Source: a virus. Taken from it: a DNA stretch of 29,763 bases. The stretch is from positions 1-29,763 of the IMG/VR virus record IMGVR_UViG_3300010885_044930. One strand, written 5' to 3'. The notes under the pieces are model-generated. The model ran no database searches and had not been told where the DNA came from. It was given only the letters and a program-made list of their open reading frames with translations. The position numbers were made by a program, and so were the translations under genes. Of this stretch, positions 3,661-28,310 are shown one piece after another (within the stretch, counting starts at the first letter, position 1; each line of letters opens with the position of its first letter).

Positions 3661-3696
3661 TAGACAAAAACATATATAGTAAGGTATACTTAAACT
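3661..3696 (+). promoter_or_regulatory. Putative promoter giving a near-leaderless transcript for the 3697 gene
   Basis: TAGACA (3661-3666, 5/6 match to TTGACA) lies 18 nt before TATACT (3685-3690), which is preceded by GG. Only 6 nt (TAAACT) separate the -10 box from the ATG at 3697, so initiation at the usual distance would place the transcript start at or next to the start codon. No convincing Shine-Dalgarno is present. The same GGTATNNT-N6-ATG layout occurs before 24333 and 26361. Confidence 0.5.
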
Positions 3697-4707
3697 ATGA
3701 ATTTAGTTCAAAAAGCCGTTGAAAACGGTGGTAAATTAGCTCCTTTGGTTATAAAAGAAGGTTTAAGTAAAGGTACGGGATTAATGAATCCCTCAATATT
3801 TATAGATGACAATGGAGATATATTAGTCAATCTACGCCATGTTAATTACACACTTTATCATTCAGAGAATACTCAGAAGTTCCCGTCAAGATGGGGACCA
3901 TTGTCATATCTTCATCCAGAAAAAGATATTAACCTTAGAACAACTAACTATTTGATGAAGCTTGACAAAGACCTTATGGTTACTAATCACACACTTATTG
4001 ATACCTCAGAACTAGATGTTGAACCTTTGTGGGAATTTGTTGGTTTAGAAGATGCTCGTTTAATTAAATGGGATAATAAATATTATGTTTGCGGTGTTCG
4101 CAGAGATACCACTACAAATGGTGTAGGGCGTATGGAACTATCTGAGTTAAATATTGATATGGATAATTTTACTGCTAAGGAAGTGTCACGTCTTAGAATT
4201 CCCGCTCCAGGTAATGATAATTCATATTGCGAAAAGAATTGGTATCCAGTATTAGATAAGCCTTATCATTTTATTAAATGGACAGCACCTACAGAGCTTG
4301 TAAGAACTTATCCAGATGAACCAGCAAGATGCGAACAGGTATTTCATAGAGATAGTCTTAAAGTTCCTGCAGATCAAAGAGGTGGTTCTCAGTTAATTAA
4401 GTTTGGCAACCTATATCTTTCTGTGACACATGAAGTAAATCTGTTTCATAATTATTTAAGTCAAAAAGATGGCATTTATCGTCATCGCCTATGTGTTTGG
4501 GATGATGACCTAAACCTTGTTGGAATTTCACCAGAACCTTTTTCTTTCTTAGATGCAAGAATTGAATTTGCGGCAGGTGCAGCAATTTTAAACGGGGACC
4601 TACTAATCTCATTTGGATTTCAAGATAATGCAGCATTTATATTAAAGGTTCCAAATGTAATATTAAATGAAATGGTGCAGGAGGCATTGTCATATGAATT
4701 CAATTGA
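3697..4707 (+). CDS. GH130/GT108-like beta-propeller protein (glycosidase, phosphorylase or glycosyltransferase)
   Basis: A 336-residue protein with the look of five-bladed GH43/GH130-type propellers. The signatures are an early NPSI strand (31-34), GLEDARL (116-122) resembling the EDPR motif of GH130 mannoside phosphorylases, CEKNWYPV (178-185) resembling the EKNW motif, GGSQLIKF...THE (229-246), and a late AAGAAI...GFQDN segment (292-311). GH130-like propellers act on mannosides; the related GT108 enzymes transfer mannose. Which activity applies here, and on what acceptor, is not decidable from sequence. It leads a three-gene cassette with a TPR protein and an FkbM methyltransferase, each overlapping the previous gene by 14 nt. 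This suggests coordinated modification of a glycan or a virion glycoprotein. The start lacks a Shine-Dalgarno and sits 6 nt after a -10-like box. Confidence 0.7.
   Translation: MNLVQKAVENGGKLAPLVIKEGLSKGTGLMNPSIFIDDNGDILVNLRHVNYTLYHSENTQKFPSRWGPLSYLHPEKDINLRTTNYLMKLDKDLMVTNHTLIDTSELDVEPLWEFVGLEDARLIKWDNKYYVCGVRRDTTTNGVGRMELSELNIDMDNFTAKEVSRLRIPAPGNDNSYCEKNWYPVLDKPYHFIKWTAPTELVRTYPDEPARCEQVFHRDSLKVPADQRGGSQLIKFGNLYLSVTHEVNLFHNYLSQKDGIYRHRLCVWDDDLNLVGISPEPFSFLDARIEFAAGAAILNGDLLISFGFQDNAAFILKVPNVILNEMVQEALSYEFN
4678..4684 (+). promoter_or_regulatory. Ribosome-binding site deciding the TPR gene start
   Basis: CAGGAGG inside the end of the propeller gene stands 9 nt before ATG 4694. It favours that codon over the upstream in-frame ATG at 4667, which has no such signal and would add nine unconserved-looking residues (MKWCRRHCH). 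Confidence 0.7.
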
Positions 4708-5266
4708 GAGTTTAATTGAAGCAGCATCTCACGATATGTTTAATCCAGTATTAAACTTTGAGATTGCTAAAAAATACGAGGAGCTAGAGCAAACAGCTTC
4801 TGCCGTATCATTTTATTTAAGAGCAGCAGAATATGGATATGAAAGTAATCCAGTAATTGTTTATACATCTTTAATTAAAATGGCCCATTGTTTTGAAGAT
4901 CAATCAGGAAGAGAGCATAGTGTAAGTAATGCTCTGCTTCAAGCTATTCAATATATGCCTGCAAGACCAGAAGCTTACTTTTTACTTTCCCGTTTTTATG
5001 AAAGATCTCAAAAATGGCAAGAGTGTTACACATTTGCAGAAATGGGAATGATGTATACAACCAGACTTGATAAACTTCCTGCTGATGTTGAATATCCAGG
5101 AGCATTTGTATTATTATTTGAAAAAGGCGTAAGTGCTTGGTGGCTGGGAAGAAAAGAAGAATCTTTAGAGATATTTAAAAATTTGCTAGAACAAGATATT
5201 CCAGATTATTATCGTTCTACAATTCAATATAACATAGATAAGATATCTCCAAATGCTACTGTTTGA
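4694..5266 (+). CDS. TPR-like helical repeat protein
   Basis: This is 190 residues from ATG 4694, chosen because of the CAGGAGG at 4678-4684; a longer form from 4667 is possible but less likely. The protein is helical and contains tetratricopeptide-like pairs: EIAKKYEELEQTASAVSFYLRA near residue 25, RPEAYFLLSRFYERSQKWQE near residue 90, and FEKGVSAWWLGRKEESLEIF near residue 145. Such TPR segments are often fused to or encoded beside glycosyltransferases in bacterial and viral glycan loci, where they bind partner proteins or peptide substrates. No catalytic motif is visible. It overlaps the propeller gene by 14 nt and the methyltransferase gene by 14 nt, so translation is probably coupled. An accessory or scaffold role for the neighbouring enzymes is inferred. 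Confidence 0.7.
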   Translation: MNSIESLIEAASHDMFNPVLNFEIAKKYEELEQTASAVSFYLRAAEYGYESNPVIVYTSLIKMAHCFEDQSGREHSVSNALLQAIQYMPARPEAYFLLSRFYERSQKWQECYTFAEMGMMYTTRLDKLPADVEYPGAFVLLFEKGVSAWWLGRKEESLEIFKNLLEQDIPDYYRSTIQYNIDKISPNATV

Positions 5267-5924
5267 TATAGGTGCTAATCGTGGAGATGCAGTAGTTGCA
5301 GGACTTCAAAGAGGTTTTGATAAGATTATTGCACTAGAACCCGCTCCAAAAATGTTTTTTATGTTACATAATAATTTTAGAGATGATGAACGTGTAATTC
5401 CATTAAAATTTGCTGTATCAGACTCTAATAATGAAAAGATTGAATTTTATGAATGTGTTGAAGATGGCTTATCTACAATTGAAAAGTCTTGGCTAACTGG
5501 TGATGGTGCTTTATACCAAGGTAAAGAATTTAGAACAATTAAAGCTGTAACCTGCACAATAGATAGACTTGTAGAAAAGTATGGTTTACCAGATCTAGTT
5601 AAAGTAGATGTAGAGGGTGCAGAAACTCAAGTTTTTAATGGTATGACATGTAAGCCAAAACAATTATGTTTTGAGTGGAGCCTATTTACCCTAGATCAAC
5701 ATTTAGAACAGCTTAAGCGTTTAAGAGATGTTAATGGATATACAGAATTTGCTTTGCAATATATTACAGATCATTTGGTAGAGCCTTTACTCTACCGCTC
5801 AATGTCTATGATAGATAGTTTGCCTCAATGGATTGAAGATACAAAGCCTGCTTGGGAAAATGGCGGGTGGTTAGAGTATGGTAATAGACAAACTGCAGAC
5901 GTTGGAATGATATGGGTCAAATAA
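5253..5924 (+). CDS. FkbM-family SAM-dependent methyltransferase
   Basis: A 223-residue class I methyltransferase. Motif I is DIGANRGD at residues 5-12, the acidic residue after strand 2 is E29 (ALEPAP), and the FkbM-typical KVDVEGAE is at 117-124. FkbM enzymes mostly O-methylate hydroxyls of sugars or polyketides using S-adenosylmethionine. The SAM loop begins only five residues from the start, so the N-terminus is very short for the family. Translation probably depends on coupling, since it overlaps the TPR gene by 14 nt and no good RBS is visible. Together with the propeller enzyme it suggests decoration and capping of a sugar, on virion fibres or on a host surface glycan. The substrate cannot be told from sequence. 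Confidence 0.85.
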   Translation: MLLFDIGANRGDAVVAGLQRGFDKIIALEPAPKMFFMLHNNFRDDERVIPLKFAVSDSNNEKIEFYECVEDGLSTIEKSWLTGDGALYQGKEFRTIKAVTCTIDRLVEKYGLPDLVKVDVEGAETQVFNGMTCKPKQLCFEWSLFTLDQHLEQLKRLRDVNGYTEFALQYITDHLVEPLLYRSMSMIDSLPQWIEDTKPAWENGGWLEYGNRQTADVGMIWVK

Positions 5925-5944
5925 TCGCTTTTTATGATTGATTT

Positions 5945-5961
5945 GGTATACTTAGAGCAAC
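5945..5961 (+). promoter_or_regulatory. Putative extended -10 promoter before the large fibre gene
   Basis: TGG-TATACT (-10 box at 5947-5952) ends 9 nt before ATG 5962. It has the extended -10 TGN form and the same GGTATACT octamer seen before 3697. No -35 box is convincing, and no ribosome-binding site is present apart from a weak AGAG. A transcript from here would have at most a few leader bases. Confidence 0.45.
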
Positions 5962-8586
5962 ATGTCCACAACGCCCAAAGGATTTAGATACCCCGTATTA
6001 ACTGATACCCCAGATGTTCCAAGAGACCTGGGTTATTTAGCAACGAGTATTGATGATTACCTTACTACAAATAAGGGCCCAGGATATTTAGTTTTTTCAA
6101 CAACATCTCAAACTGTAGCTACAGGATCAAAATCTTTTTCTGTTACAAAAACAGTAGGAAACCCAAATGGCAGTGGTGCGTATACCGCAGGCGATAGAGT
6201 AAGAGTAATCAGCTCTGGAACAATAACAAGCTGGGTAGAAGGAACAATAACTTCTGTAACATTAGATACAACTATAGTTGTTAATGTAGATACAATAAAT
6301 GGATCAGGAACTTTTGTTGATTGGAAATTTAGTTTAACTGGTATTCAAGGTTTGCAAGGTCCGCAAGGGCCACAAGGTACACAGGGCGTACAGGGCGTAC
6401 AAGGACCCCAAGGTACACAAGGCATTCAAGGAGTACAAGGACCGCAAGGCACACAAGGTGTGCAAGGTGTACAGGGGCCACAAGGCACACAAGGAATTCA
6501 AGGTGTGCAAGGTACACAAGGAACGCAGGGAGTGCAAGGTGTTCAAGGAACACAAGGTATTCAAGGTTCTGGTTATAGTGTAACAACTTCAACAACATCA
6601 AACACAATTGGAACGGGATCAAAAACTTTTGCCGTAACTAATTCTGGTGCATATATTAATGGTGATCGTGTTAGAGTAATCAGTCAAGGTTCACCAACTA
6701 ATTTTATTGAAGGAACAATTACTGCATTAACAGTTAATTCAAGCATTACAGTTCTTGCAGATATGCAATATGGTACAGGAGCATTTACTGACTGGAAATT
6801 TAGCATTGCTGGTGTTCAAGGTGTACAAGGCACACAGGGTGTGCAAGGTCCTCAAGGCACCCAGGGTATTCAAGGAGTACAAGGACCCCAAGGCACACAG
6901 GGTGTGCAAGGCGTACAGGGCCCTCAAGGTACTCAAGGTATTCAGGGGGTACAAGGAACACAGGGTACACAAGGTGTTCAAGGAACACAAGGAACGCAGG
7001 GTACGCAGGGTATTCAAGGTATTCAAGGAATTTCTATTCAAGGAACTGCAGGTATAGCAGGTCAAACAAATGCTCACCCAGCAATTAATGCTGTTTCTAC
7101 AAATAATGGAGCGGGATCAAGTACTTATTTTGCGGGAAGTGCAGATGTTGAAAGCGGAACTGGTATTGGTGCTTACATTGAAGCAAATGCAAATGGAGTT
7201 ATACCAACAATTGATGGAGTAACACTTGCTGTTGGAAATCGTGTTTTATTTACAGGTAGAGCAAACTCAATTGAAAATGGTATTTATTCAGTAACTAATT
7301 TAGGATCAGGTTCTACCAAATATCGTTTTACTCGTGCAACAGATTCGGATAACCATGTTGCTGCACAAGTAGAACCAGGAGATTATGTTTTTGCACTTAC
7401 TGGAACTTTATATGCAAATAGTACATGGGTTTTATATAGCACTGGTTCTAATCCAGATGGCTCAATTAAAATTGGTACAGATCCAATTCAATTTACACAA
7501 GCAGGTGGAATTGGTGCTCAAGGAACTGTTGGTCCACAAGGTACTCAAGGTGTACAGGGCAATCAAGGTGTGCAAGGTATTCAAGGTCTTGGATATGCAC
7601 AGCTTCAAGGTACACAAGGTATACAAGGCTTGCAAGGAAATCAAGGCACACAAGGAGTTCAAGGTCCACAAGGAACTCAAGGTATACAAGGTGTTCAGGG
7701 AACGCAGGGCATACAAGGTACACAAGGTATACAAGGCTTGCAAGGAAATCAAGGCACACAAGGAGTTCAAGGTCCACAAGGAACACAAGGCACACAAGGG
7801 TTGCAAGGTTTGCAGGGAAATCAAGGAACTCAAGGTTTGCAGGGTATTCAAGGAACAACTTATAACACTCCAACAATTGGTCAAACACAGATTACATCTG
7901 GAGCAACAATATCTGGCTTGCAAGGATTAACTCTTCAAAATACAATTCTTCAAGGAACATTGACAGCCAATGGAACAACAGGTACATCTGGCTATCTACT
8001 CACATCTACAGGAACTGGTGTTCAATGGGCAGCAGCACCAATCTCATTACCTGCTCAAACTGGTAATAACAATAAGATTCTTACAACAGATGGAACATCT
8101 GCCTCATGGACAGGAGCTCCAACATTACAGTCAATTATTACAACTGGCGATGTAACAGTTGGCGGTAATCTAAGTGTTCAAGGAACAGTAACTACAGTAA
8201 GCTCAAGCACATTAACAGTTGCTGACAAGAATATTGAATTAGCTAAATCAGCTACACCTACAGATACATTGGCAGATGGTGGTGGATTAACACTTCATGG
8301 AACTACAGATAAGACATTTAACTGGTATAACACCACACAAGCCTGGACAACATCAGAAAACTTTGATATAGTATCTGGTAAGACAATTTTAATTGGCGGG
8401 ATTCAAGGAACATCTGGTCAATATTTGAAATCAACAGGATCTGGATTACAATGGGCTACAGTAGATGCTTTACCATCCCAAACAGGAGCTGCAGGTAAAT
8501 TCCTTACCACTAATGGTTCTGTAGCAAGTTGGGGTATAATTGACGTATCTAGCACAGAAATCAATACTATTATGGGAGTATTTTAA
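5962..8586 (+). CDS. Large collagen-like tail fibre with alternating beta domains
   Basis: This fibre is 874 residues. Residues 1-40 form a start segment ([14 protein letters not shown]) likely to attach to the tail. A beta domain (41-127, with GDRVRVIS and FVDWKFS) precedes collagen stretch 1 (~128-202). A diverged copy of the same domain (~203-283) precedes stretch 2 (~284-359). A third beta domain (~372-515; [27 protein letters not shown]) is a module known from many phage fibres. Stretch 3 (~519-632) is followed by a C-terminal region whose segment [20 protein letters not shown] matches a motif frequent in aquatic phage fibres. Collagen triplets are almost all Gly-X-Gln. Such proteins form long trimeric fibres. 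Its stop overlaps the next start (TAATG). Stretch 3 has a 71-bp exact internal duplication. Confidence 0.85.
6340..6567 (+). repeat. Collagen-like coding repeat, stretch 1
   Basis: Roughly 75 residues of Gly-X-Gln triplets ([12 protein letters not shown]) encoded by 9-bp CAAGG-containing units. Stretches of more than 20 bp are identical to the repeat at 2-217. Confidence 0.9.
6811..7038 (+). repeat. Collagen-like coding repeat, stretch 2
   Basis: A second run of about 75 residues of Gly-X-Gln triplets follows the duplicated beta domain. It has nearly the same length as stretch 1, suggesting that domain and repeat were duplicated together. Confidence 0.9.
7516..7851 (+). repeat. Collagen-like coding repeat, stretch 3
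   Basis: The longest run, about 110 residues. It is richer in GNQ and GLQ triplets than the other two and is briefly interrupted near 7588 by a GLGYAQLQG segment. It contains the 71-bp exact duplication. Confidence 0.9.
7606..7784 (+). repeat. 71-bp exact direct repeat inside collagen stretch 3
   Basis: Bases 7606-7676 and 7714-7784 are identical over 71 bp, offset by 108 bp (36 codons, 12 collagen triplets). Identity at synonymous positions points to a recent in-frame duplication or gene conversion. Confidence 0.85.
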
Positions 8587-8891
8587 TGGCAACTAACACA
8601 CCAGTTTTGTTTTATAGAGGAGCAGCAGCTACTACTTCTACAACCATTTATACAGTCCCATCTTCAACAGTATCTATTTTGACAGACATTGTTGTTGCAA
8701 GTTCTGATTCTAATCAACAGACAGTTACAATTTATGTAGACGATGTAGTGCTTATTCCTACCGTCCCAATTCCATCAAATGGAGTAGTTAATTTTCAATT
8801 TAGAACCGTGCTAGCTGCAGGTAAAACAATTAAAGCTTTGGCGGGATCTACAAATGTCACATTACACGTTAGTGGGGTTCAATCAGCATAA
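8586..8891 (+). CDS. Small beta-sandwich virion protein (copy 1)
   Basis: The 101-residue product starts at an ATG overlapping the fibre stop as TAATG. The sequence is nearly all short strands: IYTVPSSTVSILTDIVV, then TVTIYVDD, then a late LAAGKTIKAL and a final THVSG-like strand. The 9222 gene has the same strand order (IYTVGAGKNAIISTIAI, LTFRIAV, LGAGDVVTVYV), so the two look like paralogues. Many tailed phages carry such ~100-residue proteins beside fibre genes as virion or fibre-associated components. The exact function is unknown. Coupled translation with the fibre is likely. Confidence 0.7.
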   Translation: MATNTPVLFYRGAAATTSTTIYTVPSSTVSILTDIVVASSDSNQQTVTIYVDDVVLIPTVPIPSNGVVNFQFRTVLAAGKTIKALAGSTNVTLHVSGVQSA

Positions 8892-9220
8892 TGGCTATTA
8901 ATCAATATCCTTCGTATGACAATATCGCAACCACACTAACTTGGAAAAAAACTGCAACTTCAGGGCAAACAACTTTGTCTGGACTAGATGATTTTGGACA
9001 GACATTATCATACACTGCTGGAATAGAACAATTTTATTTAAATGGAGTTATGTTGGTTAGAGCAGTTGATTATACTGCTACAGATGGAAAGACTATTACA
9101 ATTCCCGCTTTATATGCAGGAGACTATGTTCAGGTTATTTGTTTAGCCCCATATTCTGCAGCAACAACTTCAACAGGAAATTCAGAATCGTTTCATCCGT
9201 TTCTGCTAATGGGGGCATAA
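8891..9220 (+). CDS. Small virion protein, stand-alone form of the adhesin N-terminal module
   Basis: A 109-residue protein. Residues ~20-90 (TTLSGLDDFGQTLSY, EQFYLNGVMLVRAVDYTATD) match the N-terminus of the 645-residue adhesin at 11066 almost residue for residue, but no C-terminal domains follow. It is therefore either a free attachment or cap module, or the stump left after loss of an adhesin domain. The lone SxxFHPFLLMGA tail does not resemble the larger paralogue. The start overlaps the previous stop (TAATG). GGGG upstream (in AGTGGGGTTC) may act as RBS. Confidence 0.75.
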   Translation: MAINQYPSYDNIATTLTWKKTATSGQTTLSGLDDFGQTLSYTAGIEQFYLNGVMLVRAVDYTATDGKTITIPALYAGDYVQVICLAPYSAATTSTGNSESFHPFLLMGA

Positions 9221-9221
9221 T

Positions 9222-9551
9222 ATGGCAAATGTATATAAGGTTCTTGCACAAAGTTATCCAAATGCAATTACAAATACTGATATATATACAGTAGGTGCAG
9301 GTAAGAATGCTATTATTTCAACAATTGCTATTACAAATTTAACAGGATCACAACTTACTTTTAGAATTGCCGTTCGTCCAGCAGGAGAAACTTTAGCAAA
9401 CAAACACTATATTGCCTATGATTCCAAGGTCGCAGGTAACGATACTAACTTTGTTACTATTGGTGCTACTTTGGGAGCGGGGGATGTAGTAACAGTTTAT
9501 GTAGCCACACAAGGCATTTCATTCAATTTGTATGGAACGGAGATCTCATAA
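9222..9551 (+). CDS. Small beta-sandwich virion protein (copy 2)
   Basis: A 109-residue paralogue of the 8586 product, sharing the IYTV ... I.TI.I ... LGAGD.V strand pattern at low identity. It starts one base after the preceding stop. No signal peptide, membrane segment or catalytic motif is visible. Its placement between two adhesin-type genes suggests a fibre-associated or adaptor role. Confidence 0.7.
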   Translation: MANVYKVLAQSYPNAITNTDIYTVGAGKNAIISTIAITNLTGSQLTFRIAVRPAGETLANKHYIAYDSKVAGNDTNFVTIGATLGAGDVVTVYVATQGISFNLYGTEIS

Positions 9552-11062: not shown

Positions 11063-11065
11063 AAT

Positions 11066-13003: not shown

Positions 13004-13021
13004 TAGGGGGCAAAAAAATAA

Positions 13022-13351
13022 ATGTCTAAAGCAAGAGTTATATCAGGATATGGAGAAACGGGATCTTTTAAACAAGTCACCGTTACCTCTAATATTACTA
13101 TGACAGCATATACAAATTATTATGTAGATACTACTTCTGTTGCTTATACTCTTACGCTTCCCGCCACAGCAACAAATGGTGATGAAATTCACGTATTTGA
13201 TATTGGAAATAATTCTTCAACTAAAAATATTACAATTGCATCAAACAGTGGTAAAATTAATGGTACTGTACAAGATCTTATAGTTGATGTTAATGGAGCA
13301 GCAGTAGTCTTAATTTATACAGGTTCACTTTATGGCTGGAGGGCTGGATAA
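13022..13351 (+). CDS. Small fibre-type beta protein
   Basis: A 109-residue protein whose body (YTLTLPATATNGDEIHVFD, then NITIASNSGKINGT, then LYGWR near the end) matches a beta module often found at the C-termini of tail fibres in aquatic phages. Here it is an independent gene. A G-run (GGGGG, 12 nt upstream) is the only RBS candidate. Its stop overlaps the next start. It may be a fibre tip or cap supplied in trans. Confidence 0.7.
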   Translation: MSKARVISGYGETGSFKQVTVTSNITMTAYTNYYVDTTSVAYTLTLPATATNGDEIHVFDIGNNSSTKNITIASNSGKINGTVQDLIVDVNGAAVVLIYTGSLYGWRAG

Positions 13352-15105
13352 TGGCACTTAAATATTCATCAGTAGGTGGTGGAACTGGAACTGGCTTTAA
13401 CGTTCAAATTACATCTAAATATTCATATGCTACTTTTTTGCAAGCTCAACCTGCAGGTTCTTATACAATTAAATCAGCGGGACTTTATACAAACTGGGAT
13501 GTGTATCTTTTAGATGCAAGCAATAATTTGGTTGCCTATACTGGGGGAGCTGCAGTAAATCCAAGTTCCTCTTTTAGTGCTATTGTAATTCTTAATGGAA
13601 CGTATAACGATATTCTTCAATTTTCATTTCAATCAACAGTTATTGCATCAGCAGAAACTACTCAAATTGCGGCGGGTCCATTTATTACAGCCGCTACACC
13701 AACATCTTTACCTAATCAAAATAGTACAATTACTGTAACAGGTGGAAATTTTGCAACAGGTGTAACAGCAACATTTACAGGTTCAGATCTTGTTCCAAGA
13801 ACAGCAAAGGGTATTGTAAGAAATTCTGCATCATCAATAGTTATTACTCGTCCAGACTCTATGCCCGCAACGTATAGCCCCTACACATTAACATTAGGAA
13901 ATCCAGGTATTAATAATCCTACAAATTCTAGTGTACATATATTTTCAGGTATTACTGTTGGCGTTGCTCCAGTATGGCAAACTTCTGCGGTTTTGCCAGT
14001 AGCTGATTTAAGTGCATATTCAACTACAGTAGTTGCAACTGATGCAGATGCAGGAAGCTCTATTTCTTATTCTTATGTTTCTGGATCTTTACCTTCAGGT
14101 ATTTCATTTAATTCTTCAACAGGAGTAATAAGCGGCACTTATAATGGTTCTACAACAGGAGCAGCAACTTATACAATTCGTGCTACAGATGCGGGAGGAA
14201 ATACCGCAGATAGAACATTTACATTGCCATACACAGTGATAACAGGTGGAACATTGGTATCAGATTCTACATATTATTATAGAGTATTTAAGAGTAACGG
14301 AACGCTTGCAGGCGTTTCATCACTTTCAGCTGATCTTTTTGTTATTGGAGGAGGCGGTGGCGGAGCAAGTACAATTGGAGGAGGTGGAGGAGCAGGCGGA
14401 GTTGCTTACTCATCTTCACAATCATTGACTGGCTCTTACACAGTAACAATTGGAGCAGGTTCAATTGGTTCTGGTTATGGTGGAGGTTCATACCCAGCTG
14501 GATATGCTGGAACAGCAACCACATTTGGATCTCTAGTAACTGCTTATGCAGGCGGTGGCGGCGGTGGTTACAACACAAGTGCAGCCGATAGCCCTTCAAC
14601 TACTGGATCGGGTGGAGGAGGAACTCCAACAAGTGCAGCACACCAAGGTGGATACCCTACCTCTACTGGTCAAGGTAATAATGGTGGTTCTGGTGACGGC
14701 AATGGAAACAACGGCGGTGGCGGTGGCGGAGCGGGTGGAGTTGGTGGATCCGCTTCAAGCTCAAATTCTGGTGCTGGAGGTTCTGGCACAAATACTTACT
14801 CTTCCTGGTTAACAGCAATTTCATCAGCAATGTCTGGAGTTTCAGGTTGGTCATCTGCAGTAACTGGTGGCTATATTGCTGGTGGAGGTTCTGGTGGTTC
14901 TCGTCAAGGAAGCGGAACAAATAGTACAACTGTTAACGGCGGAGGCGGAATTGGAACAACAGATCAAACCCAAGGTGGAGCAGGAACACCAAATACTGGC
15001 GGAGGCGGCGGAGGCGGCGGTTATGTAAGTAACCCTACTGCTGGAGGACTAGGTGGTTCAGGACTTGTAATTGTTCGTTACACTCGTGCATCAATAGGCG
15101 GATAA
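13351..15105 (+). CDS. Modular adhesin: IPT-like + putative-Ig + glycine-rich tip
   Basis: A 584-residue protein starting at a TAATG overlap with GGAGG upstream. Residues 1-297 are paralogous to the 9551 product: an N-terminal module, an IPT-like domain (~109-200), and He_PIG-like putative-Ig (~205-295; ATDADAGSSISY, LPSGISFNSSTGVISGT). From ~307, a YYYRVFKSNG strand leads into VIGGGGGG and a ~250-residue Gly/Ser/Thr-rich domain, ending with TPNTGGGGGGGG and GLVIVRYTRASIGG. Similar glycine-rich ends occur in the 19989 and 21609 products. Glycine-rich tips are known as receptor-binding surfaces in some phage adhesins; that use here is inferred. Confidence 0.78.
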   Translation: MALKYSSVGGGTGTGFNVQITSKYSYATFLQAQPAGSYTIKSAGLYTNWDVYLLDASNNLVAYTGGAAVNPSSSFSAIVILNGTYNDILQFSFQSTVIASAETTQIAAGPFITAATPTSLPNQNSTITVTGGNFATGVTATFTGSDLVPRTAKGIVRNSASSIVITRPDSMPATYSPYTLTLGNPGINNPTNSSVHIFSGITVGVAPVWQTSAVLPVADLSAYSTTVVATDADAGSSISYSYVSGSLPSGISFNSSTGVISGTYNGSTTGAATYTIRATDAGGNTADRTFTLPYTVITGGTLVSDSTYYYRVFKSNGTLAGVSSLSADLFVIGGGGGGASTIGGGGGAGGVAYSSSQSLTGSYTVTIGAGSIGSGYGGGSYPAGYAGTATTFGSLVTAYAGGGGGGYNTSAADSPSTTGSGGGGTPTSAAHQGGYPTSTGQGNNGGSGDGNGNNGGGGGGAGGVGGSASSSNSGAGGSGTNTYSSWLTAISSAMSGVSGWSSAVTGGYIAGGGSGGSRQGSGTNSTTVNGGGGIGTTDQTQGGAGTPNTGGGGGGGGYVSNPTAGGLGGSGLVIVRYTRASIGG

Positions 15106-15117
15106 ATTTAAAATGCA

Positions 15118-15152
15118 GTATAATAAGAATATAATAAAAGGAGGTAAGTAAT
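15118..15152 (+). promoter_or_regulatory. Putative promoter and leader with strong RBS
   Basis: CAGTATAATA (-10 box TATAAT, 15119-15124) is followed by an A/T-rich leader and AAAAGGAGG, then ATG 15153. No -35 box is clear. The same CAGTATAATA-leader-GAGG layout precedes ATG 21609, so the two probably descend from one duplicated control region. Confidence 0.5.
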
Positions 15153-15524
15153 ATGGCACATTGGGCCGAATTAGATGAAAACAATATTGTAACTCGTGTA
15201 CTTGTTGGAGATAATAATGATCCAGCAGGAGATGAAGGATATCAATGGTTAATTGACAATCTAGGAGGTAAATGGGTAAAAACTTCCTATAATACAATTG
15301 CAGGACAACATACTTTAGGCGGGACCCCGCTAAGAGGTAACTATGCAGGAATAGGCTATTCATATAATGAAGAGTTAGATGCTTTTATCCCGCCAAAACC
15401 TTTTGAGTCTTGGACATTAAATACAGAAAAATTTAACTGGGATTCACCAAAAGCATATCCAACAGATGGCAAATTCTATACATGGGATGAAGCAGATCAA
15501 AATTGGATTGAGGTAGCAGAATAA
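15153..15524 (+). CDS. Small conserved phage protein, MAH..LDENN family (copy 1)
   Basis: A 123-residue protein with a strong AAGGAGG RBS. It belongs to a family of small acidic, Trp-rich proteins common in aquatic phages: MAHWAELDENNIVTRVLVGD, then a WVKTSYNT / NYAGIGYSY core, then IPPKPFESW, then a closing YTWDEADQNW. The function is not established. These genes typically sit next to fibre genes. The 23207 product is a full-length paralogue and the 15524 product resembles only its C-terminal third. The stop overlaps the next start (TAATG). Confidence 0.8.
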   Translation: MAHWAELDENNIVTRVLVGDNNDPAGDEGYQWLIDNLGGKWVKTSYNTIAGQHTLGGTPLRGNYAGIGYSYNEELDAFIPPKPFESWTLNTEKFNWDSPKAYPTDGKFYTWDEADQNWIEVAE

Positions 15525-15694: not shown

Positions 15695-15698
15695 TTAA

Positions 15699-16160
15699 AT
15701 GACAAGAGCTAGGGACGTAGCAAACTTTTTAAGCGGTTCAGCAACATTTACAGGTACTGTTACTGTCCCTACTCCTGTAAATGGAACAGATGCTGCAAAT
15801 AAAGCATATGTAGATACAGCAGCAGGATCAGACATTGGTTTAATTGATAAAATTTATTTTGATGGAACTGAAAGTAGATTTGTTCCATATAGTAATGGGA
15901 GCAAGATCACAATAACTAATCCAAATAGGCTTTTAATAACTGTTAATGGTATAATTCAAACAGTAGATTTTCCTGAATACGTTTGGCAAAGTCCACTACC
16001 AAGACCAGGATTTCAAGTAGATAACGACGGCTATTTGAATTTCTCAGAAGTACCCCCAGCAGGTTCAACCTTTGACGGGAAGATAATGCTAGGACCAACT
16101 ACAAATACATCAGGAAAAAATTATCCGTTTTCAGCAGCGGACATATTACTAGGAGCGTAA
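15699..16160 (+). CDS. Small fibre-related protein with RARDVANFL start motif
   Basis: A 153-residue protein. MTRARDVANFL and GTDAANKAYVDTA are two short motifs recurrent at the N-termini and joints of tail fibres in T4-like and other aquatic phages. The remainder (IYFDGTESRFVPY, LLITVNGIIQTVDFPEYVW) is a beta domain that probably folds as an adaptor or decoration unit. No strong RBS is visible in the 4-nt gap, so translation may be coupled to the preceding mini-gene. Confidence 0.7.
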   Translation: MTRARDVANFLSGSATFTGTVTVPTPVNGTDAANKAYVDTAAGSDIGLIDKIYFDGTESRFVPYSNGSKITITNPNRLLITVNGIIQTVDFPEYVWQSPLPRPGFQVDNDGYLNFSEVPPAGSTFDGKIMLGPTTNTSGKNYPFSAADILLGA

Positions 16161-16164
16161 AACT

Positions 16165-19971: not shown

Positions 19972-19988
19972 AAAAAGGGGAGGGCAAA

Positions 19989-21548
19989 GTGCCTTTAGAC
20001 AAAGCAAATAAACTCTCCAATGATTCTTTAAAAACTCCATATATAAATATTGGTAATAAAGTTGGAGAATTAGGGCAATCTGTTGCTACTATTTATTTTG
20101 GTTTAAATAGTAATAGACCAACTAATCCATTAATTGGAGATCAGTTTTTTCAAACACAAAGTCAAGAATTACAAATTTATACAACAAATGGCTGGGTTCC
20201 AGTAATGACAAAACCATCTGCTCCAATAGGTGTGGTTGCTTCAAATAATCCTGTAATATATGGTGGGATTCCATCAGCATCTATAAGCTTTATACCATCA
20301 AGCTCTGATTCTCCAGCAAATTTATATACAGTAACATCAACACCAGGCTCCTTAACTGCAACGGGAACATCTTCTCCAATTACAGTAAACGGACTCACTG
20401 CTGGAACATCATATACGTATACTGTAACAGCTTCAAATAGTTATGGTTCTTCTACATCTTCTCCAAGTTCTGCGGTAATTGCAGGAACAATTTCACAACC
20501 GCCAACTAATGTATCTGCTTCTGGGAACAATACTTCAGCTACAATATCATTTACAGCACCTTCAAATGTTGGAGCTTCCCCAATAACATCTTATACTGTT
20601 TATTCATCTCCAGGAAATTTTTTTAATACGGCAGCATCTTCGCCAATAACAGTTCAATTTTTAACTAATGGTACACCTTACACTTTTACTGTAGTTGCAA
20701 ACAATAATGCTGGATCTTCTGTTTTATCACAAGCAACATCTCCAGTTACTCCAAATGGAATATCAACCGCAACGGGAGGAGCACCATCTCAAGATGCAAC
20801 TTATTACTATAGAACTTTTACTGGAAATGGAAATTTTGTTGTAGGTTTAACTGCACTAACAGTAGACATTTTAACAATTGCAGGAGGGGGATCTGGTGGT
20901 TCTAACATGTCTGGTGGCGGTGGTGCAGGTGGAGTTTTATATTCTTCAACACAAGTTTTACCAGTTGGTTTAACAGCTGTAACAATTGGAGGAGGTGGAG
21001 CCGCACCAGCAAATGATTCATGGGCCGATGGAAGGCCAGGCACAGATTCATCAGTAGGATCTTTTATAGCAAAAGGCGGAGGCTATGGTGGGGGTTATGG
21101 TGGAAATGGTGGAAATGGTGGTTCAGGAGGCGGATTAGGCTGGGTAGGTACAGTGCAAGGTCTTGGAACCACTGGTCAAGGAAATAATGGTGGAGCTGTA
21201 ACTGCTAATGGAGGATCAACTGGTGGCGGCGGAGCAGGAGGACCAGGTGGTGGAGGTTCTGGAGGTTACTATGGAACTGGCGGTCCTGGAGGTTCAGCAA
21301 CATATGCTTATTCATCATGGGCTTCAATAACGGGCACTGGAGTTGGCGGAGGTTACGCAGGCGGCGGCGCAGGAGATTCATATTCTTATGGCTCTGGTGG
21401 CGGAGGTGGTGCAGGTGCAAACGGTAGCAATGCTACTCCAAATACGGGTTCTGGCGGCGGTGGCGGTGGATATGGCTACACACAAATTAGTGGTGGTGCT
21501 TCAGGAATTGTAATGATAAGATTTACAAGAGCACAACTTGGTGGATAA
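19989..21548 (+). CDS. Modular adhesin: fibre module + two FN3 domains + glycine-rich tip (copy 1)
   Basis: A 519-residue protein starting at GTG 19989, supported by AGGGGAGGG four bases upstream and by alignment of its N-terminus with the 21609 product (LSNDSLKTPYINI versus VSNDSLVNPYINI). Residues ~42-75 carry the NRPTNPLIGDQFF ... NGWV fibre motif. FN3-like domains lie at ~77-168 and ~172-262. The remainder is a Gly-rich tip (VDILTIAGGGSGG ... TPNTGSGGGGGGYG ... SGIVMIRFTRAQLGG). The first FN3 unit is strikingly close to those of the 11066 product. It is a receptor-binding candidate. Confidence 0.78.
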   Translation: MPLDKANKLSNDSLKTPYINIGNKVGELGQSVATIYFGLNSNRPTNPLIGDQFFQTQSQELQIYTTNGWVPVMTKPSAPIGVVASNNPVIYGGIPSASISFIPSSSDSPANLYTVTSTPGSLTATGTSSPITVNGLTAGTSYTYTVTASNSYGSSTSSPSSAVIAGTISQPPTNVSASGNNTSATISFTAPSNVGASPITSYTVYSSPGNFFNTAASSPITVQFLTNGTPYTFTVVANNNAGSSVLSQATSPVTPNGISTATGGAPSQDATYYYRTFTGNGNFVVGLTALTVDILTIAGGGSGGSNMSGGGGAGGVLYSSTQVLPVGLTAVTIGGGGAAPANDSWADGRPGTDSSVGSFIAKGGGYGGGYGGNGGNGGSGGGLGWVGTVQGLGTTGQGNNGGAVTANGGSTGGGGAGGPGGGGSGGYYGTGGPGGSATYAYSSWASITGTGVGGGYAGGGAGDSYSYGSGGGGGAGANGSNATPNTGSGGGGGGYGYTQISGGASGIVMIRFTRAQLGG

Positions 21549-21567
21549 TAAATACAAAATGTATTTA
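21549..21567 (+). repeat. AT-rich inverted repeat between two adhesin genes
   Basis: TAAATACA-AAA-TGTATTTA is a perfect 8-bp inverted repeat with a 3-base loop just after the 19989 gene stop and before the putative promoter at 21576. The stem has only one G-C pair and no T-tract, so it is not a typical intrinsic terminator. It could be a weak hairpin or a protein-binding palindrome. Confidence 0.3.
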
Positions 21568-21574
21568 AATTACA

Positions 21575-21608
21575 GTATAATAGATTTATATAAAGTGAGG
21601 AGTAATTA
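21575..21608 (+). promoter_or_regulatory. Putative promoter and leader, duplicate of the 15118 region
   Basis: CAGTATAATA (TATAAT at 21576-21581) is followed by an A/T-rich leader and GTGAGGAG, 6 nt before ATG 21609. The box, leader length and RBS placement parallel the 15118-15152 region. Confidence 0.45.
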
Positions 21609-23207
21609 ATGGCTATAGATAAACCACAAAATGTATCAAATGATTCTTTAGTAAACCCTTATATAAATATTAATAGTGTTCCAAGTCAGCTTGGAGGATC
21701 AGTATCAACATATTTATCTGGAGCAACTGCAAATCGCCCAGCAACATCACTAATTGGAAATTTATACTATAATACTACATTAAATGAATTGCAACAATAC
21801 ACAATAAATGGATGGGTTTCATTGGGTTTAATTCCATCTGCACCAACATCAATAACTGTATCAAATGATTCAATTGCATATGGTGGTACTCCAGCCGCAA
21901 TAGTTTCTTTTATTCCAGCAAATACTGGTACGCCAGCAGGCTATTATAGAGTTACAACAACTCCAACAACATCAACTGTTACAACTACAAATACAACAAT
22001 TAGTTTTTCAGGTTTGACTGCTGGAACAGCATATACTTTTAATGTGGTTGCAGGAAATACATATGGAATTTCTTCAAGTATTACAAGTTCATCATTAACT
22101 GCAGGAACCTTATCGCAACCACCAACTGGGCTTACAGCTACAACAAGTAATAGAAATGCAACAATATCTTTTACCGCACCTTCAAATACTGGTGCAGCTC
22201 CAGTTACATCTTATACAGTTTATTCAAATCCAGGAAATATTTCAGCTTCTGCTGCATCTTCCCCAATAACAATTTCAGGCTTAACGTTTGGAACACCATA
22301 TACTTTTACAGCAGTTGCAAACAATAGTGCAGGATCTTCAGTTTTGTCAACACCTTCAAATCAAGTAACACCTTCGGCTATTACCGCACCAGCGACAGTA
22401 GAAGTTTTAGTTGTTGCTGGTGGCGGCGGTGGTGCAGGAGGAACAGGTTTTGAAACTGGTTCAGGAGGAGGTGCTGGAGGATATCGTTATTTTGCAGCTT
22501 ATTCGCCACCTTCTAATTCCTTAACGGTAACTGTTGGAGCAGGCGGTGCTGCGGTAGTTACTGGAAATCAAGGAAATAGAGGAAATAACTCAGTATTTGG
22601 AACAATAACAGCAACATACGGCGGAGGCGGTAAATATTATTCAACAGCTGGAGAAGCTGGCGGTTCAGGTGGTGGTGGAGCACCTTCAGGAGGTGCAGGA
22701 AATCTTGGTAATTACACACCATCAGAAGGTAATGCAGGATCAGGATATTCTCCAGGTGCGGGGCCAAACACTCTAGGCGGCGGTGGTGGCGGAGCAACCC
22801 AAGGAAATCCAGGTCACAGCGGCGGAGCTGGAGCAACTTCAACAATTACTGGCCCATCAGTTAGTTATGCAGGCGGAGGCGGAGGCGGATCTGGTTGGGA
22901 CACTGGAAATAATCCTGGTGCTGGCGGTTCAGGCGGCGGTGGCACTGGAACTTTTGTTTCCACTGCAGGCTCTGGAACTCCAAACACAGGCGGCGGCGGA
23001 GGAGCAGTAGGACAAACTTTTTCAAATACTGGAACATTTTCTGCGGGAGCTGGTGGCTCTGGTGTAGTAATTATTGCATATCAATCTGCAGGAACATCCC
23101 CATTAGCAACAATTGATGCTGGTTTGACATATACTTTAGACACTACAACAAGATCTGGATATAGAATTTATAAATTTACAGCTGGAACAGGGGCGGTAAG
23201 CTGGTAA
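21609..23207 (+). CDS. Modular adhesin: fibre module + two FN3 domains + glycine-rich tip (copy 2)
   Basis: A 532-residue paralogue of the 19989 product with the same order: an N-terminal VSNDSLVNPYINI segment, NRPATSLIGNLYYNTT ... NGWV (~42-75), two FN3-like domains (~77-165 and ~170-262), then a glycine-rich domain from VEVLVVAGGGGGAGG (~268-475) with SGTPNTGGGGGAVG. Unlike copy 1 it adds a ~55-residue C-terminal extension (LTYTLDTTTRSGYRIYKFT). The glycine-rich halves are far more different than the FN3 halves. This fits divergence of the receptor-contact part after tandem duplication. The stop overlaps the next start (TAATG). Confidence 0.78.
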   Translation: MAIDKPQNVSNDSLVNPYININSVPSQLGGSVSTYLSGATANRPATSLIGNLYYNTTLNELQQYTINGWVSLGLIPSAPTSITVSNDSIAYGGTPAAIVSFIPANTGTPAGYYRVTTTPTTSTVTTTNTTISFSGLTAGTAYTFNVVAGNTYGISSSITSSSLTAGTLSQPPTGLTATTSNRNATISFTAPSNTGAAPVTSYTVYSNPGNISASAASSPITISGLTFGTPYTFTAVANNSAGSSVLSTPSNQVTPSAITAPATVEVLVVAGGGGGAGGTGFETGSGGGAGGYRYFAAYSPPSNSLTVTVGAGGAAVVTGNQGNRGNNSVFGTITATYGGGGKYYSTAGEAGGSGGGGAPSGGAGNLGNYTPSEGNAGSGYSPGAGPNTLGGGGGGATQGNPGHSGGAGATSTITGPSVSYAGGGGGGSGWDTGNNPGAGGSGGGGTGTFVSTAGSGTPNTGGGGGAVGQTFSNTGTFSAGAGGSGVVIIAYQSAGTSPLATIDAGLTYTLDTTTRSGYRIYKFTAGTGAVSW

Positions 23208-23575
23208 TGGCACATTATGCATTTTTAGATGAAAATAATATTGTTACAGAAGTAATTACAGGACGCAATGAATATGAAGTTATTGATGGAATATCAGATT
23301 GGGAAGAATATTACGGTAATATTAGAAATCAAACCTGTAAGCGTACTTCGTATAATGGAAATATAAGAAAAAATTTTGCAGCGGTAGGTGGATCATATGA
23401 TCCAAGTCTTGATGCATTTATACCAATTAAACCATATCAATCGTGGATACTTGATGAAGAAAAATGTCAATGGATTGCTCCAAAAGCAAATCCATCAGGT
23501 AATGGTGTATACTACAAGTGGTCAGAAGACGATATTGATTGGGTTGTTGACCACGTAATTTCTAAAAAAGGATAA
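23207..23575 (+). CDS. Small conserved phage protein, MAH..LDENN family (copy 2)
   Basis: A 122-residue paralogue of the 15153 product: MAHYAFLDENNIVTEVITG, CKRTSYNGNIRKNFAAVGGSY, DAFIPIKPYQSWILDEEKC and a closing YYKWSEDDIDW. Like copy 1, it lies directly downstream of (copy 2) or close to (copy 1) a glycine-rich adhesin gene. The two families may therefore function together, for example as a fibre chaperone or a decorating subunit. That function is inference from position only. Confidence 0.8.
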   Translation: MAHYAFLDENNIVTEVITGRNEYEVIDGISDWEEYYGNIRNQTCKRTSYNGNIRKNFAAVGGSYDPSLDAFIPIKPYQSWILDEEKCQWIAPKANPSGNGVYYKWSEDDIDWVVDHVISKKG

Positions 23576-23578
23576 TTA

Positions 23579-24316
23579 ATGGATCAAGACGTTATAAATG
23601 TTTATTGGGCTCCAGAATCAACTTGGGAAACCCCAGGGCTAGGAGAATGGAATCTTTTGTATCCAGAACCAAAAACTTTATTTTCTGAGTTACAAGAACA
23701 AAGATCAAAATATGCTGGGCCAGACACTTACTTTTCATGTCCAGCAACAAGTGATAAATATAGAAAAACATATGTTTTTAGAAATACTTTGCCATCTTCC
23801 TACGCATTTGATTTTACAGATAATCAACAAATTATAAACCCAACAAGCGAAGGCTATATTAGCTATGAAGTATTAAGGCCACCAACTATTGCAGCGGGTC
23901 CAATGATAAACTTTAACCTATTCTATTCTTTTTTTGCTGATCAACCCTTAGAGGCAATATTTACTCCACCAATGATGCATAAACCAGGCTATACAAAATA
24001 TGGAACAACTATACCTGGTCAGTTTGATATTGGTCAATGGTATAGGCCATTCCCACTTGAAATGCAGATGTGGGATATAAAAGGAGATTTTCATATGGGT
24101 GAAGAACCAATTTTTTATGTTGAATTTAAAACTGATAAAAAGATTAAAATGCATAGATATCAAATGAATGGAACACTGTCATCATATTTAAAAATGTGTT
24201 CTACATCCAGAACAACTTGGGGAGCTGGACAAAGCTTGCTAAAAAGATATGAAAGATTCAATAATTCAAGAACAAACGAGTTGATTCTTAAAGAAATTAA
24301 GAAACAAGTCTTATAA
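23579..24316 (+). CDS. Conserved phage protein of unknown function
   Basis: A 245-residue soluble protein, aromatic- and Pro-rich: INVYWAPE, WNLLYPEPKTLFSEL, YFSCPATSDKYRKTYVF, then a central IAAGPMINFNLFYSFFADQPLEAIF, and a basic helical C-terminus. I recall similar proteins (a WxPE start, SCPA..D..K.T, then FFA/PPxMH) among unnamed proteins of marine and freshwater myoviruses; none has an assigned role to my knowledge. Composition differs clearly from the Thr/Gly/Ser-rich adhesins around it, so it may be an enzyme or assembly factor rather than a fibre. It starts 3 nt after the previous stop. Confidence 0.7.
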   Translation: MDQDVINVYWAPESTWETPGLGEWNLLYPEPKTLFSELQEQRSKYAGPDTYFSCPATSDKYRKTYVFRNTLPSSYAFDFTDNQQIINPTSEGYISYEVLRPPTIAAGPMINFNLFYSFFADQPLEAIFTPPMMHKPGYTKYGTTIPGQFDIGQWYRPFPLEMQMWDIKGDFHMGEEPIFYVEFKTDKKIKMHRYQMNGTLSSYLKMCSTSRTTWGAGQSLLKRYERFNNSRTNELILKEIKKQVL

Positions 24317-24332
24317 AAGGTATAATGGTATT
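24297..24332 (+). promoter_or_regulatory. Putative promoter giving a leaderless transcript for the 24333 gene
   Basis: GGTATAAT (24319-24326; perfect TATAAT) ends 6 nt before ATG 24333, with TTAAGA (24297-24302) 18 nt upstream as a weak -35. The only purine-rich stretch, AAAAGG, is 12 nt from the ATG, too far for a good RBS. This is the same arrangement as before 3697 and 26361. Confidence 0.55.
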
Positions 24333-26300
24333 ATGTCATATCAACAAACGGTACTAAGAGACGATCCAGTAGCATATTGGCCTTTAACAGGCACATCTAC
24401 TATACGTACCTATGCTTCGATTTTGGAACAATATAACTCATATCAAGAATGGTTAAACTCTGAAGCTAACTACGCTTATGAATCTGGATCTATTACTTTT
24501 GAAGATGTATCTGTAAATAAAAATCACGCTGCGGTATCTTTTGGTACCCAGCTTCCTACATTTTTGGATATTTTAACTCTTAACTCCCGCCTATTTAGCG
24601 ATACAGCAAATAACGGATGCAAACTTAATGATAACTCTGTTATTAGCATTTTTGATATTTACAGTTTCTTTGACAAAAATTATGAAGGCGGGATTTTTGG
24701 AGCAGAGTTTTGGATACTATTAGAAGAAGCTCCTAATGACAAGGTAAACCTATTTAGCGTAGTAAATGGATCAACCGTAGTAGTTGAATCATATGCAGAA
24801 GATGATTGTATCTATTTTAAAATAAATACAGATTTAGGTTCATATACAACCAAGAAACGTATATTCTCATGGGACAAAAAAGTTCACATATACCTATCCT
24901 ATGGTGAAAGAAAAATGGAGGTATATGTAAATGGAATCTGTGATGAGTCTGTTACTATTCCTACAAATGATAAATTTATTATGGTTACAAATTTGTATGT
25001 AAAGTATAAATTAGGTCCCGCTCCAGCAGGTAAATTTTTTGTTATCAATGACGTGGCCCTTTATACACACAAACTTTCAGTTCAAGAAATTAGAAACCAC
25101 ATGCTTTGGGCAGATAAAGATTCTGGACCAGATCAATTTGCACAACAAGGTAGTGCATACCATTTTGATATTAAACCTAAAAATGACATGATTCATTTGC
25201 AAAAGCAGTTTACATCGCCAGAAGATTACAATCAAGGTACCTTCTCTGGACTTATTTCTGATAGATCTGGAATTACAGTAAAGCAAACAGGAACATCAGG
25301 AACTGCTCTAGGAACTTGGTTTTACAACTTCCCAATAGTTCAGCATATAGATTTTGCGGGAATTAGTATTTATTGGGATACGGCAACTTCATATACATCT
25401 TTGGCGGGAAGTAAGCATGTCAAAGTATATTCATCTTATGATAACGGAACTACATGGTATTCAGTATATAGCAATGAGCTTGTTCCCTTCTTTCTTGCAA
25501 ATGCCATAAATAACCCATCAGCAAGTCTTTTGATCAAGGTTGAAATGTATTCTCCAGACACTTCTGCAGATAATCAGCCGAGACTAGATAACCTTTCAAT
25601 AAAGTTGTTTAAGAGTTTAAATGTGTCTGCTGATTCTGGCGGATTTGTTCTTGCTCCAGTTGCTAGTCAAACCTATATGGTCAGAGAACATGATATTAAA
25701 TTAATTGAACGTGAAAAGAATTTGGGTATTAACTTTGTTAATCAAACACCAGGAACTGGATATCCAGGTGCTGCAGTTATTACTTCCCCTAATAACACTG
25801 CATATAAAACTATAGAATTTTGGTTTAAGTATTCTGGCACTACAGCCTCTACAGCAGCTGTTTTAGACACTGCAACAATTGCGGGTGTAGACTTATCAAT
25901 TGCTAACGGAACTAACCTCCTAACCAACAACCTGGGCTCAGGAGGCACCTTGTATATCAATGGTGTGCCTCAGATAACAGGAACTTACTCAATCGTTCCT
26001 GGAGCATCATATTTCATTACAGTTGTTTATAATCAATCAACAATTAATCCAATATACATTAATGGAAGCACAGATGGGTCTATACCTTCTCCACAAGCAA
26101 TGTATGGCTTCTTTACAATGTTCCCAAATGCTTTAACTGCTACCGAAGTGCAGACAAGATACCTTTCATATTTGGCAACTAAGACTTCCATAGTGTACGA
26201 TAGTACAACTACGCTTGGAAGCGTTCTTGAGTACATTGGAGCAACTCCAACAAGTTTAAATGGCGGTCTTGCTGTCATTTCACACGATCATACATATTAA
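24333..26300 (+). CDS. Minor tail protein with two LamG/ConA-like lectin domains
   Basis: A 655-residue protein. The N-terminal ~260 residues have the LamG-like start DDPVAYWPLTGTS, followed by DVSVNKNHAAVSFG, GAEFWILL, KVHIYLSYGERKMEVYVNG and FVINDVALYTHKLSVQEI. These are the successive strands of a Laminin_G_3 jelly roll. A middle region (~280-430) resembles a discoidin-like segment (IDFAGISIYWDTATSY, HVKVYSSYDNGTTWYSVY). A second ConA-like domain (~470-620) has TIEFWFKYSG, TLYINGVPQ and PIYINGSTDG. Such tail proteins bind glycans or form the tail tip. It is likely a minor tail protein or receptor-binding protein near the baseplate. The start has no Shine-Dalgarno and a -10-like box 6 nt upstream. 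Confidence 0.78.
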   Translation: MSYQQTVLRDDPVAYWPLTGTSTIRTYASILEQYNSYQEWLNSEANYAYESGSITFEDVSVNKNHAAVSFGTQLPTFLDILTLNSRLFSDTANNGCKLNDNSVISIFDIYSFFDKNYEGGIFGAEFWILLEEAPNDKVNLFSVVNGSTVVVESYAEDDCIYFKINTDLGSYTTKKRIFSWDKKVHIYLSYGERKMEVYVNGICDESVTIPTNDKFIMVTNLYVKYKLGPAPAGKFFVINDVALYTHKLSVQEIRNHMLWADKDSGPDQFAQQGSAYHFDIKPKNDMIHLQKQFTSPEDYNQGTFSGLISDRSGITVKQTGTSGTALGTWFYNFPIVQHIDFAGISIYWDTATSYTSLAGSKHVKVYSSYDNGTTWYSVYSNELVPFFLANAINNPSASLLIKVEMYSPDTSADNQPRLDNLSIKLFKSLNVSADSGGFVLAPVASQTYMVREHDIKLIEREKNLGINFVNQTPGTGYPGAAVITSPNNTAYKTIEFWFKYSGTTASTAAVLDTATIAGVDLSIANGTNLLTNNLGSGGTLYINGVPQITGTYSIVPGASYFITVVYNQSTINPIYINGSTDGSIPSPQAMYGFFTMFPNALTATEVQTRYLSYLATKTSIVYDSTTTLGSVLEYIGATPTSLNGGLAVISHDHTY

Positions 26301-26345
26301 AAATGGTAGTCAACAGTACACTTATTACGCTTTAGCTAAACAGAA

Positions 26346-26360
26346 TGGTATTATAACGAT
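26346..26360 (+). promoter_or_regulatory. Putative extended -10 promoter giving a leaderless transcript for the head operon
   Basis: TGG-TATTAT (26349-26354) with AACGAT as the 6 nt before ATG 26361. No RBS and no convincing -35 are present, but the TGN extension can replace a -35. The 60-bp gap 26301-26360 otherwise holds no gene or clear terminator. Confidence 0.5.
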
Positions 26361-26699
26361 ATGGGAAAAATGAAGATTACCCCCGTAGATGAAGTCAACT
26401 GGGGATTATATATGTGGCAGATGCCAGACGAATCACTAGTAATGGACGATGAAGGCGGATATCTTTGTGTCCCGTCACTTAAAGGTGACATTAAACAAAT
26501 TAAAAAAATTAAAGAAGTTGCAAAGCATCATGGACTTTCAGAAGGAAAGCCTATTTTTTTTGCAGGGCACAGAACAGTAACTGGAGATGAGCTTGAAGAA
26601 CAGAAGACAAGATCAAATATGGGATTAATTCCAGACACACAGGACATGCCTGCAATGATGGAATACGTTAAAGAAATGCGGGAGATGAAACTAGGATAA
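26361..26699 (+). CDS. Conserved small phage protein upstream of portal
   Basis: A 112-residue charged protein (MKITPVDEVNWGLYMWQMPD, DDEGGYLCVPSLKGD, a lysine-rich helix IKQIKKIKEVAKHHG, GKPIFFAGHRTVTGDELEEQ, and an acidic Met-rich helix at the end). I recall similar small proteins placed just before portal genes in some actinobacteriophages, but I cannot name a family. Its stop overlaps the portal start (TAATG), so it is probably co-translated with it. A head-assembly or portal-accessory role is inferred from that position. Confidence 0.7.
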   Translation: MGKMKITPVDEVNWGLYMWQMPDESLVMDDEGGYLCVPSLKGDIKQIKKIKEVAKHHGLSEGKPIFFAGHRTVTGDELEEQKTRSNMGLIPDTQDMPAMMEYVKEMREMKLG

Positions 26700-28276: not shown

Positions 28277-28310
28277 TAAGCACTGTAAATTATGAGTTAA
28301 TTATAAACAC

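Follow-up and report, generated by a model that had tools for sequence, protein, structure and literature searches.

Conserved -10 boxes a few nucleotides before structural genes predict leaderless or near-leaderless transcription units in a virus related to Streptomyces phages

In the freshwater phage analyzed here, which is related to large phages of Streptomyces, several structural genes carry a promoter-like box almost touching the start codon, which raises the question of whether transcription begins on, or close to, the AUG at these genes. The stretch examined, referred to as the window, is a full IMG/VR virus record of 29,763 bases with 62% A+T, in which every clear gene lies on the same strand with short gaps. 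A preliminary description had pointed to an octamer, GGTATNNT, placed 6 nt before three ATG codons and 9 nt before a fourth, and both layout and coordinates proved exact at all four. At the first site (3683..3699, + strand), GGTATACT occupies 3683-3690, includes the -10 hexamer TATACT (3685-3690) and stands 6 nt before the predicted leaderless start of gene 3697-4707; a -35-like TAGACA lies 18 nt upstream. The second (24319..24335, +), with GGTATAAT at 24319-24326, combines a -10 with the predicted leaderless start of a LamG-domain gene (24333-26300). The third (26347..26363, +) is an extended -10, TGGTATTAT-6-ATG, in which GGTATTAT (26347-26354) ends 6 nt before ATG 26361, the predicted leaderless start of the pre-portal gene (26361..26699, +; phrog_9394). 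This gene is the first of the head operon and shares 46% identity with Jay2Jay gp51 and Wakanda gp19; the portal protein gene (26699..28276, +; phrog_12) follows in the same operon with an SD-type, overlapping start. The 9-nt site (5945..5964, +) is an extended -10, TGGTATACT-9-ATG with GGTATACT at 5945-5952, before a collagen-like tail fibre gene (5962-8586), for which a 3-nt leader is predicted. A fifth site of the same type had been missed: an extended -10 (TGCTATTAT; TATTAT-11-ATG, 28320..28333, +) 11 nt before the head maturation protease gene (28331-29707; phrog_9427, families here being assigned with PHROGs and Pfam), which is conserved in relatives and predicts a leader of 4-5 nt. As side observations on the window, genes 3697-5924 form a cassette within the structural region (an unknown protein, a TPR/glycosyltransferase-like protein and an FkbM methyltransferase), possibly for virion glycan modification, and a collagen-like repeat coding sequence (1-220) continues past the left end.

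The automatic Shine-Dalgarno (SD) flag at 3697 and 24333 is an AAGG touching the -10 box itself. Genes with a genuine SD had been described as having the box farther away or not at all, and this contrast holds: TATAAT precedes 15153 by 17 and 28 nt and 21609 by 27 nt, and none occurs in the 60 nt before 29732. Genes 15153 and 21609 also share a similar leadered promoter (TTTAAA-N-T-N-CAGTATAATA) with an SD, and this part of the window holds paralogues, namely three phrog_2295 proteins (13351-15105, 19989-21548, 21609-23207) and two phrog_7759 proteins (15153-15524, 23207-23575).

The octamer occurs 18 times in the whole window against an expectation of 16.6 ± 3.8; it was therefore rejected as an enriched word, and by itself carries no meaning. 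Its excess is position-specific, as the proposed comparison of starts with a control bears out even though the window total is at chance. Exact 6-nt spacing (GGTATNNT-N6-ATG, at 3683, 24319 and 26347) is found at 3 of 25 starts, where composition-matched upstream regions predict 0.013, and an octamer 5-12 nt before the start at 4 of 25 (0.115 expected); neither count was reached in 20,000 simulations, and the reversed-pattern control gave no occurrence in the window. One more octamer, at 24327-24334, runs into the start codon of 24333 and seems incidental. Because pattern and spacing were picked after viewing the sequence, the simulation probabilities are optimistic, and conservation in relatives was therefore used as an independent test, which proved strong. 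We drew on 80 relatives from IMG/VR, 15 of them taken as long contigs, together with annotated phages; genes were called by a simple longest-ORF scheme, so that some called starts are wrong.

All four sites originally described recur upstream of orthologues, and they recur as a -10 core with its spacing, while the two preceding bases vary. The idea of the octamer as one recurring phage element thus does not stand; what sequence comparison shows to be conserved is a -10 box of sigma-A type (TATNNT, often extended TGN). The idea of one late promoter used phage-wide was also rejected, GCTTTA-N9-15-TGGTANNAT occurring at most once per contig. What was observed with regard to the late role first suggested is the location of the boxes at structural genes.

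Conservation is clearest at the pre-portal gene. Among 50 non-redundant upstream regions of 26361 orthologues, 45 have the -10 at 6 nt (39) or 7 nt (6), and across long contigs and genomes the figure is 21 of 21 (16 freshwater, 5 Streptomyces phages). The TGGTATTAT-6-ATG block is preserved while most neighbouring intergenic sequence varies. The script scored four regions as boxless. Of these, L010 and L080 carry SD-like leaders, GGTATTTA adjoins the ATG in L044, and L026 does carry the box, a downstream ATG having been picked. A -10 at 6-7 nt is also present in the Streptomyces phages BillNye, StarPlatinum, Yaboi, Karimac, Patelgo, Sham and Mildred21 (weak hexamer), and it lies at exactly 6 nt in the Rhodococcus phages Grayson (TATAAT) and Francesca (TACAAT), at a protein identity of 34-38%. 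In four relatives (L083, L054, L030, L078) the N-terminus is 3-5 codons longer and the -10 is still 6 nt from the upstream ATG; the spacing therefore follows the start codon. The annotated starts of Tomas gp50 (L139:662) and StarPlatinum gp48 (L178:316) lie 15 nt downstream of an ATG with a -10 at 6 nt; they are probably misannotated, given that the upstream, predicted leaderless ATG matches the orthologues.

Conservation at the other genes is more variable. Orthologues of 3697 show TATAAT-6-ATG in G015, G012 and L084 and not in others (G004, L083). Those of 24333 mostly have either a close -10 or an SD: TATAAT-6/7-ATG is seen in L019, L008, L006, L013, L072, L074 and L084, the box is also at 6 nt in relatives in W04 and W05, and other orthologues are SD-led. 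As 24333 and 3697 orthologues without the box are mostly SD-led, the two start modes appear interchangeable. At the fibre gene, TTTGGTATACT is conserved at 8-9 nt in the 5962 orthologues of G004, G012, G013, G015 and L083. Of 38 non-redundant upstream regions of the protease gene, 35 keep TGCTATTAT at 10 nt (30) or 11 nt (5), and the stretch ahead of the -10 is almost invariant; the protease orthologue in Streptomyces relatives has the -10 at 6 nt. A -10 ending about 6-7 nt before the start, the layout of TA-led genes, is thus found at 3697, at 24333 and in the 26361 family, while 5962 (9 nt) and 28331 (11 nt) are predicted to be near-leaderless only. The proposal that these mRNAs start at or near the AUG is accordingly supported as regards -10 placement and needs correcting at 5962, where the distance is 9 nt (8-9 nt in most relatives) and a leader of 2-3 nt is predicted instead of strict leaderlessness.

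The same layout stands out in genome-wide counts. In Streptomyces relatives there are 42 cases of TANNNT 6 nt before ATG, other spacings giving about 10; when a TTG at a 16-18-nt spacer is also required, the counts are 22 against 0-8, and counting gene families gives 14 compared with a mean of 1.9. Counted by distinct gene family, freshwater contigs show a weak excess (11 at 6 nt against 5.7, p = 0.03), which means that a single family supplies much of the freshwater signal. An SD is seldom found where the -10 lies 5-7 nt from the start, both in freshwater contigs (5 of 37 against 221 of 443 at other starts, p = 1e-5) and in Streptomyces relatives (2 of 37 against 269 of 537, p = 2e-8), whereas SD sequences are enriched where that distance is 20-36 nt. 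Such a pattern would be expected if leaderless and leadered promoters coexist, as described in actinobacteria (PMC3160421, PMC4633059). Many structural genes are SD-led; in the Streptomyces relatives these include the major capsid gene. Separately, terminator-like hairpins lie inside leaderless promoters of Streptomyces relatives at 9 of 127 sites, compared with 1.3 in shuffled sequence; eight of the nine belong to starts whose -10 is 5-7 nt away. The hairpins often hold the -35 in the loop with the -10 directly after the stem (L142:14172, i.e. W01 34172; L149/L150, W02 32413 and 47362; L153, W02 109759; L171, W06 48251). None occurs at the window's sites, and the hairpins are therefore kept outside the main finding.

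WhiB proteins are not known outside actinobacteria and their phages. A WhiB is absent from the window itself and was found in the three longest, near-complete freshwater contigs (G001-G003) and in all six Streptomyces relatives searched. Among annotated phages, the nearest are Stanwilliamsviridae infecting Streptomyces, with 54-56% portal identity; megablast of the window against annotated phages gave no match. The pre-portal gene matches Streptomyces phages (127) and Rhodococcus phages (8) only. Owing to this kinship and the WhiB of relatives, we infer that the host of the phage group, and of the window contig, is likely actinobacterial, in agreement with the actinobacterial link first suggested; WhiB has been used in the literature for assigning freshwater phages to actinobacteria (PMC6802176). 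A cyanobacterial host, indicated by a single genome contig match (L084, CAINGU010000031.1, from a MAG labelled cyanobacterium), was set aside because this contig belongs to a phage closely related to the others, and both kinship and WhiB indicate actinobacteria; L084 is likely mis-binned.

Position, conservation, fixed spacing and anticorrelation with SD are the observed basis of our preferred reading, to which we assign a probability of roughly 0.86: the boxes head leaderless or near-leaderless (2-5-nt-leader) transcription units, very probably read by the host sigma-A RNA polymerase. We found no RNA data for the window phage or its relatives, and from the sequence we infer mRNA 5' ends, polymerase use and translation mode as follows. 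The host primary (sigma-A-type) polymerase would start on the A of the AUG where the box is 6 nt away, and 2-5 nt before the AUG where it is 8-11 nt away, so that the mRNAs would be leaderless or nearly so. These messages would be translated without an SD interaction, as is common in actinobacteria. The boxes would start separate transcription units inside the one-directional structural region, most other genes being SD-led, which agrees with the earlier view of them as transcription-unit heads.

A second conserved element may bear on how these promoters are selected. Alignment of 26361 and 28331 on the -10 reveals a shared box, TTANGNNTTA, at a predicted position of about -36 to -27, its end 14 nt from the -10. 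It reads TTACGCTTTA at 26323..26332 (+), where it is conserved in the 26361 family in the register of the 28331 family, and TTATGAGTTA at 28296..28305 (+), where it is near-invariant over 35 non-redundant upstream regions. Extended -10 sites reach a box score of 6/7 or more in 33 of 165 cases upstream of genes, compared with 2 of 662 elsewhere; removing the two families leaves 6 of 138, again compared with 2 of 662 (p = 5e-4), sites outside them including a phrog_1084 gene and one fibre gene. A similar box in the same register is also seen at leadered promoters (28-36 nt) of phrog_1084-type genes (G001 48948, G002 82473, G004 15370, G010 24309, G012 33232). Other genes in the same freshwater contigs have TTGACA-18-TATAAT instead, which suggests that TTANGNNTTA plus -10 is a candidate promoter class particular to the freshwater branch and distinct from TTGACA promoters; the box is a better candidate than the octamer for a phage-specific class. 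One could go further and suppose that TTANGNNTTA is bound by a phage-encoded activator, most naturally the phage WhiB-like protein docked to region 4 of host sigma-A; the activator would steer host polymerase towards structural genes, and leaderlessness would be a by-product. The recurrence of one box in one register at two unrelated gene families, its enrichment upstream of genes and the TTGACA-18 promoters of neighbouring genes all speak for this. The group also encodes WhiB, and no sigma-70-type match was found (no PF04542 match in freshwater contigs, no PF04545 match over cut-off in 21 records, contigs possibly being incomplete), so a phage-encoded sigma factor was dropped as a candidate. 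Because WhiB7 of mycobacteria works through contacts with SigA and with an AT-rich motif adjoining the -35 (PMC3905903), phage WhiB may be considered a reasonable candidate by analogy. Against this, nothing ties phage WhiB to TTANGNNTTA, the box is absent at 3697 and 24333, and at the corresponding position of the same genes Streptomyces relatives carry a TTG-type -35 (TTGCC, TTGCT or TTGGCT, then TTTT), so host recognition alone may suffice. We regard a dedicated activator as possible but doubtful; it would be compatible with the preferred reading at 26361 and 28331.

Two further explanations were weighed. The boxes could be active promoters while most protein comes from longer read-through mRNAs or other starts, leaderless translation having little weight. 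Such messages are conceivable given that the window's genes all point the same way with short gaps between them, and some fibre orthologues have an AGGAG between -10 and ATG that is usable on a longer transcript only. Yet 26361, 28331 and 3697 have no SD that a longer transcript might use, and terminator-like hairpins stand directly upstream of or within several Streptomyces promoters, which makes this account unlikely. Far less probable still is that an AT-rich genome has produced these TA-rich words by chance, or that the boxes are functionless remnants of recent common descent. The octamer is indeed not enriched overall at 62% A+T, but the 6-7 nt spacing is kept at identities down to 34-46%, at G+C contents of 33-53% and amid diverging intergenic surroundings; it is preserved when N-termini change, and it anticorrelates with SD.

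The leaderless start is a known kind. A survey of leaderless ('TA-led') genes puts their average share in Actinobacteria at 19% (PMC3160421), and the phage sites resemble TA-led actinobacterial genes (PMC3160421; mycobacterial mapping in PMC4633059) in having TANNNT with its first T about 12 bp before the start and no SD. They differ in that the layout is conserved at named orthologous structural genes, with a common upstream box at two, and in that the 5' ends here are predicted. Host primary-sigma promoters (TTGACN-17/18-TATAAT) are matched by the TTG at a 16-18-nt spacer in Streptomyces relatives and by TTGACA-18-TATAAT at several freshwater genes, whereas the freshwater 26361 and 28331 families have TTANGNNTTA in place of TTGACA. 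T4 middle promoters (MotA/AsiA) likewise lack TTGACA and pair a -10 box with a GCTTTA-like box near -30, and a MotA-type middle promoter was considered for this resemblance. It was set aside on a weak test: PF09114 gave no MotA match in 17 records, but the control genomes gave none either. The phage group also differs from T4 in having an HK97-type portal and protease. WhiB7-SigA promoters of mycobacteria (PMC3905903) share an AT-rich stretch directly upstream of the -35 position, and the phage group encodes a WhiB-like protein; here, in contrast, the -35 is off consensus and a role for phage WhiB is a candidate by analogy. In the literature we found no phage group described as sharing a conserved leaderless start at an orthologous structural operon; as far as we searched, this conservation and the common upstream box appear undescribed.

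In its boldest form, which we hold improbable as a whole, the picture would be of a large actinophage group that keeps a spacing-locked leaderless head-operon start across host genera, with a freshwater branch whose TTANGNNTTA-N14-TATTAT class is selected by a phage WhiB-like protein on host sigma-A, and with some Streptomyces leaderless promoters fused to a terminator-like hairpin that holds the -35 in its loop. If so, the promoter-fused hairpin would insulate the leaderless message against read-through. More generally, the conserved starts may improve start-codon annotation, as for Tomas gp50 and StarPlatinum gp48, and offer a candidate promoter class for WhiB proteins, which many actinophages encode and for which no target is known. 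They may also provide a system for asking why phages keep leaderless messages, for example for selective translation late in infection when ribosomes are altered.
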